Assembly (NCBI GenBank): GCA_017307375.1
Contig: JAFKFH010000022.1
Location: 1-64,000, forward strand
DNA length: 64,000 nt
Source of the DNA: Alphaproteobacteria bacterium
GTDB lineage: Bacteria > Pseudomonadota > Alphaproteobacteria > Ferrovibrionales > Ferrovibrionaceae
Direction: 5' to 3'
Below are positions 5,217 to 5,344 of the stretch, in pieces (the first letter of the stretch is position 1; each line of letters opens with the position of its first letter). Both the position numbers and the translations under genes were made by a program. The notes beneath the pieces are model-generated. The model was not told where the DNA came from, did no database searches, and saw only the letters and a program-made list of their open reading frames with translations.

Positions 5217-5312
5217 ATGTTCCGCGATCGCGCCTTTTCCCAGCCTTCAGGTTCCTTCTCGTTCAGTTCCTTCTCCTTCGCCGGCACCCTGCGACTTAGC
5301 CGCGGCTGCTGA
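5217..5312 (+). CDS. Candidate 31-codon leader peptide upstream of leuA (Phe/Ser-rich)
   Basis: In the 406-base gap between the CPBP gene and leuA there is a short ORF starting at ATG 5217. Its product runs MFRDRAFSQPS, then GSFSFSSFSFAG, then TLRLSRGC. It contains six phenylalanines and eight serines, with four Phe in a ten-residue run (codons 14-23). The stop codon lies inside a very strong hairpin (5302-5344). That layout, a residue-biased short ORF whose end overlaps a hairpin before a biosynthetic gene, is typical of transcription attenuators. The bias is toward Phe/Ser and not Leu, and only a weak GAG lies before the ATG, so translation is unproven. The rest of the gap (5000-5216) shows nothing else I can support. 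Confidence 0.4.
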   Translation: MFRDRAFSQPSGSFSFSSFSFAGTLRLSRGC

Positions 5313-5344
5313 CGGGCGTTTCACGCCCGGCTTTCAGCGGCCGC
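5302..5344 (+). promoter_or_regulatory. leuA: Strong leader hairpin before leuA (candidate attenuator)
   Basis: An inner stem CGGGCG (5313-5318) pairs with CGCCCG (5324-5329) across a five-base loop. An outer stem GCGGCTGCTGA (5302-5312) pairs with TCAGCGGCCGC (5334-5344) with a single G-U wobble and a four-base GCTT bulge. This gives 17 base pairs in total. The outer 5' arm is the last codons and stop of the upstream ORF, so a ribosome finishing that ORF would melt the outer stem. There is no U-run, so it may act by Rho, RNA stability or initiation rather than as an intrinsic terminator. Confidence 0.5.

Follow-up and report, generated by a model that had tools for sequence, protein, structure and literature searches.

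A probable leucine-responsive leader with two tandem leader-peptide units upstream of leuA in an alphaproteobacterium

A short open reading frame (ORF) with a run of alternating Phe and Ser codons lies upstream of leuA in the 64,000-nucleotide stretch of alphaproteobacterial DNA analysed here (the window), and its stop codon falls within a large hairpin. Such an arrangement may be an attenuator, which raises the question of what the leader would sense and at which level it would act. The downstream gene (leuA, 5406–7067, + strand, 553 aa; ORF listing and protein search) is one that we take to encode 2-isopropylmalate synthase from its naming in the initial annotation and a known signature. It is preceded by a ribosome-binding-like GAGGGGA (5391–5397, +; sequence).

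The reported ORF, termed leader 2 in the following, occupies 5217–5312 (+), runs from ATG to TGA and encodes MFRDRAFSQPSGSFSFSSFSFAGTLRLSRGC in 31 codons plus the stop, as had been claimed and as was verified from the sequence and the ORF listing; the listing begins this frame at an in-frame alternative GTG start at 5181. The hairpin (hairpin 2, 5302–5344, +) had been described as having 17 pairs and comprises 18 including one G–U, and so 17 Watson–Crick pairs, arranged as an outer stem of 11 pairs (the G–U among them) and an inner stem of seven; its loop in the window contains an inner hairpin. The stop codon (5310–5312) does lie in the 5′ arm, where it makes up the last three bases of the outer segment, whereas the distance from this stop to the leuA ATG (5406) is 93 nt and not the 94 reported. 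The 58 nt containing hairpin 2 were more stable than 60 dinucleotide shuffles (z = −4.2). On folding, a weak base stem enclosing the hairpin was formed by GTCGC (5357–5361, +), which is complementary to GCGAC (5291–5295). A ribosome-binding site for leader 2 was seldom visible by eye across the loci. The length of the ORF is itself unremarkable, 55 ORFs of at least 20 aa overlapping 3500–8500, and the last codons of leader 2 are significant because of the comparison with relatives and not because of ORF length.

The LeuA protein of the window was used as the query against 61 genomes and 18 genomes of the order (its own included in both) and 386 genomes of the class. LeuA of the window's type was found at E ≤ 1e-150 in 115 of the 386 class genomes. 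A total of 124 leuA upstream regions, the window's included, was assembled from 29 loci of the 61-genome search, 23 loci of the class search and 72 further stretches. G328 (start cut off) and weaker LeuA-like matches such as L002, L003 and L032 were excluded; near-identical pairs (e.g. L006/L007) remain in the counts unless stated. For redundancy reduction one locus was kept per cluster at 65% identity, a threshold of 0.60 having merged nearly all loci and being uninformative. Additional named leuA loci were the best 80 of 590. The element is shared by named alphaproteobacterial records, e.g. Pelagibius, Roseospira and Rhodospira, which point to Alphaproteobacteria as the class of the genomes compared. 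In one genome a LeuA-like piece of 103 residues (G017:C43:102412–102720), 78% identical, was observed about 1.5 kb before the full leuA.

The feature common to the leaders is a C-terminal Leu-Arg-Leu encoded as CTN CGA CTT A, about 11 nt before the hairpin; in leader 2 it reads CTG CGA CTT A (5289–5298, +; motif comparison). The heptamer CGACTTA was the top 7-mer of the 124 regions, with 123 copies in 84 of them compared with a mean of 2.6 for 630 permuted 7-mers of the same composition. An alignment of leuA upstream regions had been proposed in the initial annotation as a check on the ORF, and the comparison bore out conservation of the frame: 119 of the 123 copies share a frame with an ATG no more than 60 codons away, and the other two frames give 11 and 14. 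The codon immediately before CGACTTA encodes Leu in 83 of 123 copies, and Leu is enriched at codons −1 to −5 before CGA in the ORF frame only. Short ORFs starting with ATG were also searched for Leu-Arg-Leu close to their ends, with no preselection for codon or heptamer (n = 103 motifs); Arg was CGA in 97 and the second Leu was CTT in 91, while in the leuA genes (n = 46) CGA makes up 2.2% of Arg codons and CTT 3.2% of Leu codons. The base after the motif was A in 80 of these 103, though the next amino acid varies. A fixed complementary partner of CGACTTA was sought and none was found, AAGTCG, AGTCG and GTCG being just mildly enriched downstream.

CGACTTA was absent from 40 of the 124 regions. 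A short Leu-Arg-Leu ORF was present in 12 of these, in some perhaps by chance; among the other 28, a Leu-rich ORF such as MHMPHAITGLLLLSHPAS was listed in 16, and nothing was recognized in the last 12. Short ORFs ending in Leu-Arg-Leu before leuA were also seen in gammaproteobacteria and a cyanobacterium (L053, L057, L039 and L097), with the Leu codons CTA and CTG; three of these four ORFs were listed from TTG or GTG starts.

The Phe and Ser codons of leader 2 form two imperfect 15 nt pyrimidine-rich units, TTCCTTCTCGTTCAG and TTCCTTCTCCTTCGC (5252–5281, +; sequence). The initial annotation had regarded such a bias as odd for leuA, a judgement that overlooked the leucine codons just before the hairpin (CTG CGA CTT, 5289–5297), and had suggested that the ORF senses charging of Phe- or Ser-tRNA or that a Phe/Ser nascent peptide arrests the ribosome. 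Phe and Ser do account for 52% of the codons preceding CGA in the window, as would suit this suggestion. The comparison covered 59 proximal leaders (the second of two, or the only one) in which CGA is preceded by 12 codons or more, and there the run proved peculiar to the window: the remaining 58 leaders all have 36% or less (next highest 36%; mean 16%), and leaders lacking the run, all from other genera, still keep CGA CTT and the hairpin, which makes sensing of Phe or Ser, or arrest by a Phe/Ser peptide, highly improbable. From these sequences, the run appears to be a local oddity that is absent as a common feature in relatives. Leader 2 of L011 (G010), third in Phe/Ser richness among the 59, contains an in-frame repeat beginning MSSHVFSRPVFCRLGFSRLGFSRPGFSRLAAG. 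In the minimum-energy fold of the window part of the Phe/Ser tract pairs with about 5370–5400, and our guess from this one fold is that the tract may serve RNA pairing with the leuA ribosome-binding region instead of amino-acid sensing; the footprint folding model (see below) does not bear this out. An alternative Leu-rich frame, RLFPAFRFLLVQFLLLRRHPAT followed by a stop (frame of 5219), was rejected: it has no ATG, GTG or TTG start, and the CGACTTA of relatives is in frame with the other ORF.

At least two copies of CGACTTA were found in 37 of the 124 regions, the window's among them, with the last two copies 129–229 nt apart. The first copy in the window belongs to an ORF overlooked in the initial annotation (leader 1, 5104–5139, +), which encodes MIAMALSLRLI followed by a stop and has its Leu-Arg-Leu core, CTT CGA CTT A, at 5125–5134 (+; motif comparison). 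Leader 1 contains three Leu codons and leader 2 only two. CTNCGACTTA followed by TGA 2–5 nt later occurs once in the whole genome, at leader 1. Hairpin 1a, CCGGCGCC/GGCgGCCGG (5140–5160, +; folding), begins 12 nt downstream of the first base of CGA. It is followed by the small hairpin 1b, GGCGTT/AGCGCC (5166–5180, +; folding), similar ones being seen by eye in relatives. GTCGAAG (5183–5189, +) is the perfect complement of CTTCGAC in leader 1 (5125–5131) and could form a base stem around hairpins 1a and 1b. In genus g4 (L006, L007, L009–L014 and L019) the distal leaders were seen to carry a plain Leu run, e.g. MNKTARLSSLLLICPIL (L009) and MKRDRRLTQLLLINPIL (L006), each followed by a stop codon, which lies within the loop of a CCCGATCCTG/CAGGGTCGGG hairpin.

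Promoter-like boxes are present upstream of leader 1 (5066–5094, +; sequence), namely TTGACC (5066–5071), a 17 nt spacer and CATGGT (5089–5094), the second box being a poor match. The spacing from the start of TTGACC is 38 nt to the ATG at 5104 and 47 nt to an inner ATG at 5113. Among the 84 first-or-only leaders, TTGAC was located 28–50 nt before the in-frame ATG in 59 (35–39 nt in 52); the same procedure gave none for 33 second leaders, and the random-position rate was 4.9%. A strict sigma-70 scan called no promoter at the TTGACC box of the window. The position of the box suggests a transcription start at the leader 1 ATG or immediately ahead of it, and leader 1 would then be leaderless.

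Segments downstream of the motif folded with z below −2 relative to shuffles more often than controls did: for proximal copies in 21 of 37, for distal copies in 21 of 39 and for single copies in 24 of 47, as against ten of 124 control segments. Covariation in the stem, the other check proposed beforehand, was evaluated for hairpin 2 with 23 proximal elements (the window's included) that were picked by hand for regular layout from a wider set of 53, in which the stem search was confined to a range of starts. In this alignment 90.9% of 276 cells were paired and eight of 12 pairs had changed on both sides; cells with changes on both sides numbered 30, compared with 11.3 in shuffles and 7–14 in slid versions, and the stem thus covaries in these picked elements. 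Further pair types were not above shuffles (17 versus 17.7). Distal hairpins displayed compensatory changes in 24 distinct loci with the stop seven codons after CGA (best stem per locus, no shuffle control), the window's own subtype having its stop three codons after CGA. Arm position 6 was seen as GC, AU, CG, UA and GU, and hardly any stem was found in one of the 24 (L205). No consensus structure emerged from RNAalifold on a loose alignment of 46 elements. As judged by comparison of the sequences, the ORF frame, the codons and the hairpins are all conserved.

The hairpin starts 11–12 nt after the C of CGA in the aligned elements and in the window, and the stop codon lies three codons after CGA in one subtype and six to nine in others. 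This nearly constant distance despite a shifting stop points to the leucine codons, and not the stop codon, as the reference point for placement of the hairpin.

A covariance model was built from 23 training loci including the window's. In the window's own 7.5 Mb genome one strong site was returned, before leuA (E = 8e-7; next match 0.92). In 192 class genomes, searched with stricter filters, there were 24 matches at E ≤ 0.01, of which 20 were just before leuA (11 training loci and nine independent ones) and four elsewhere with E of 0.0055 to 0.01. Among 79 named loci (from the best 80 of 590) seven reached E ≤ 0.01, all just before leuA; by record title four are alphaproteobacterial, two gammaproteobacterial and one actinobacterial. 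Rfam at gathering score gave nothing over the leaders, 5100–5450 producing two matches with E above 1 and far below gathering scores, and none of 14 related loci, six actinobacterial ones included, had a match. The sole Rfam match in the 64 kb window is a glycine riboswitch aptamer (37923–38035, +; 65.5 bits).

Pairing beyond the hairpins was assessed by permutation. Between the proximal loop and the next 25 nt, complementary runs of at least five were found in 26 of 47 copies compared with 12.7 expected (2 of 5000 permutations); the corresponding values were 2/5000 at 30 nt, 31/5000 at 20 nt and 137/5000 at 15 nt. With a first loop definition, which treated inner hairpins and extended branched regions as if they were loop, this pseudoknot test had given 166/2000 for proximal copies and the opposite for distal ones (1996/2000). 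The stem was redefined after that result had been seen, and the redefined test covers proximal loops, the distal result being by the first definition only. With one locus per cluster the median p was 0.037 and the maximum 0.10 (24 clusters). In the window the inner hairpin occupies part of the loop of hairpin 2, which makes a pseudoknot there ambiguous. Between the Leu-codon region and the leuA ribosome-binding region, runs of at least six occurred in 28 of 83 loci compared with 14.3 expected (0/5000 by run length; 61/5000 by duplex energy; with one locus per cluster median p 0.025 and maximum 0.17, 43 clusters). The longest such run is four in the window and nine pairs in L013 and L014. The base stem of proximal copies gave 14, 272 and 304/5000 for three spans. 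Distal Leu codons and the downstream RNA gave 0, 1 and 39/5000 for three spans (47 distal copies), with a median p of 0.000 and a maximum of 0.001 on taking one locus per cluster (25 clusters); the example in the window is CUUCGAC/GUCGAAG. After redundancy reduction the sequence evidence for the pseudoknot and for the pairing with the ribosome-binding site is suggestive, being statistically supported but moderate, and that for the distal Leu-codon pairing is firmer.

The effect of a bound ribosome was predicted with a footprint folding model that does not include pseudoknots. A footprint at CUU raised the predicted openness of the leuA site from 0.35 to 0.41 (p = 3e-4; 37 of 83 loci up and 14 down); in the same 83 loci no opening resulted from a footprint at the stop (0.36) or from a shifted one (0.35). 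In the window itself the value rose only slightly on a stall at CUU, from 0.13 to 0.18. Blocking the stop gave an equal 0.18, and a queued ribosome closed the leuA site (0.03). Opening of the leader 2 start by a stall in unit 1 had p = 0.02 versus free RNA and p = 0.06 versus shifted blocks (33 loci).

On balance we consider the region likely to be a leucine-responsive leader consisting of two tandem leader-peptide units, probably a translational attenuator. The earlier suggestion of an attenuator-like leader before leuA is in this respect upheld by the in-frame conserved Leu-Arg-Leu codons, the covarying hairpins and the placement before leuA, all of them results of sequence comparison; stalling, the response to leucine and the translational level of control are what we infer from them. 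Each unit would consist of a short ORF ending in CTN-CGA-CTT-A and a hairpin at nearly constant distance. In the free RNA the hairpin of unit 2 would form, its loop pairing with downstream RNA as a pseudoknot in many relatives; the leuA ribosome-binding region would be taken up by pairing with the Leu-codon region of leader 2, resulting in poor translation of leuA. When charged Leu-tRNA is scarce the ribosome would stall at the CUN and CUU codons flanking the rare CGA codon, cover the Leu-codon strand and open the base of the hairpin, so that leuA would be translated. Unit 1 would act alike one step upstream and may set the frequency with which leader 2 is translated. More tentatively, the two units may form a two-stage leucine gate in which CGACUUA is used twice per transcript, a leaderless unit 1 gating leader 2 and unit 2 gating leuA. 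CGA-CUU-A, two rare codons and a favoured next base, would then serve specifically for stalling or recognition, and the sensor would therefore read codon context beyond the Leu codons.

The main rival of the translational reading is transcription attenuation, in which stalled ribosomes would keep transcription from ending early, whether through Rho or at weak intrinsic terminators. The ORF and hairpin anatomy is that of classical attenuators, two units in succession would match two termination checkpoints, and leader 2 of the window has the C/U-rich, G-poor composition typical of Rho sites (C 0.40 and G 0.14 over 50 nt). This composition is, however, not a shared one, the mean of 75 proximal copies being C 0.33 and G 0.27, and a conserved Rho-type C/U bubble was rejected as absent from the mean of the relatives. 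Moreover, no terminator-like hairpin with a U run was found in 4990–5420, and the Leu region pairs with the leuA ribosome-binding region above permutation. We regard control by termination as possible but doubtful.

The conserved RNA might instead be the binding site of a regulatory protein, the leader ORFs being of subordinate importance; such control has been proposed for the LEU element of Actinobacteria (PMC1262725). Conservation of the core as nucleotides, which extends into the codon that follows (first base A in 80 of the 103 motifs), would fit such a site, which need not be in frame; the 119 of 123 copies in frame 0 and the enrichment of Leu in that frame only make it unlikely. A role of CUU-A as a +1 frameshift site linking the leader to leuA was prompted by the window, where the +1 frame after CUU-A is open until a TGA overlapping the leuA ATG. 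Of 75 proximal copies, 53 remain open over 25 codons in the +1 frame and 48 in the third frame, and among distal copies the figures hardly differ either (35 of 48 versus 30 of 48). With no clear excess of open +1 frames, frameshifting was rejected as most improbable.

Several known systems resemble the translational attenuator favoured here. In the enterobacterial leuL transcription attenuator the Leu codons belong to a leader ORF whose sequence overlaps that of the first hairpin; its terminator with a U run has no counterpart in the 4990–5420 scan of the window. The closest likeness is to the LEU element of Actinobacteria (Seliverstov et al., 2005; PMC1262725), which is upstream of leuA and combines a loop-to-downstream pseudoknot with pairing of the Leu strand and the leuA ribosome-binding region. 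The Leu codons at the end of its ORF immediately precede a GC-rich hairpin that contains the leader stop. It has a plain Leu run where the present class usually has Leu-Arg-Leu (CTN CGA CTT A). The present elements further differ in their alphaproteobacterial host, in the frequent occurrence of two tandem units and in the statistically moderate pairing with the ribosome-binding site (longest run in the window four). By eye, the order of parts in actinobacterial sequences matches that of the window's element. The covariance model reached the actinobacterial copies at E = 7e-4 for L075 and at 0.18 or weaker for the other pre-leuA matches (79 loci, from the best 80 of 590). Unit 2 is treated here, by analogy, as working like the LEU element; its membership is tentative, because the evidence on the pseudoknot and the ribosome-binding-site base stem is equivocal and the model barely reaches actinobacterial copies. 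In the 2005 paper, mutational results on the Leu codons are reported to be at odds with classical attenuation and the mechanism was left open (PMC1262725).

Streptomyces lividans leuL1 likewise encodes a Leu leader peptide, MRFGLLLLSCRGEGL, before leuA, and is reported to be leaderless and to have no typical Rho-independent terminator; it differs in being a single actinobacterial unit with no Arg between the Leu codons (PMC8079986). Two ORF-dependent attenuators in one leader are described for Salmonella mgtCBR, where the ORFs are reported to answer ATP and proline, in contrast to the one Leu core in both ORFs here (PMC3641672). No paper on a leuA leader in Alphaproteobacteria was found among the matches listed, as judged by titles and abstract openings; an earlier description in Vitreschak et al. 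(2004), on attenuation in proteobacteria, is possible.

A counterpart of the LEU element in which codons are strongly constrained and hairpins covary, and which occurs naturally both singly and in tandem, is a tractable system, which could decide among transcriptional, translational and protein-mediated control. It also provides a searchable signature for leucine leaders in GC-rich genomes, an in-frame CTN CGA CTT A about 11 nt before a hairpin, the tested copies of which have no Rfam match.
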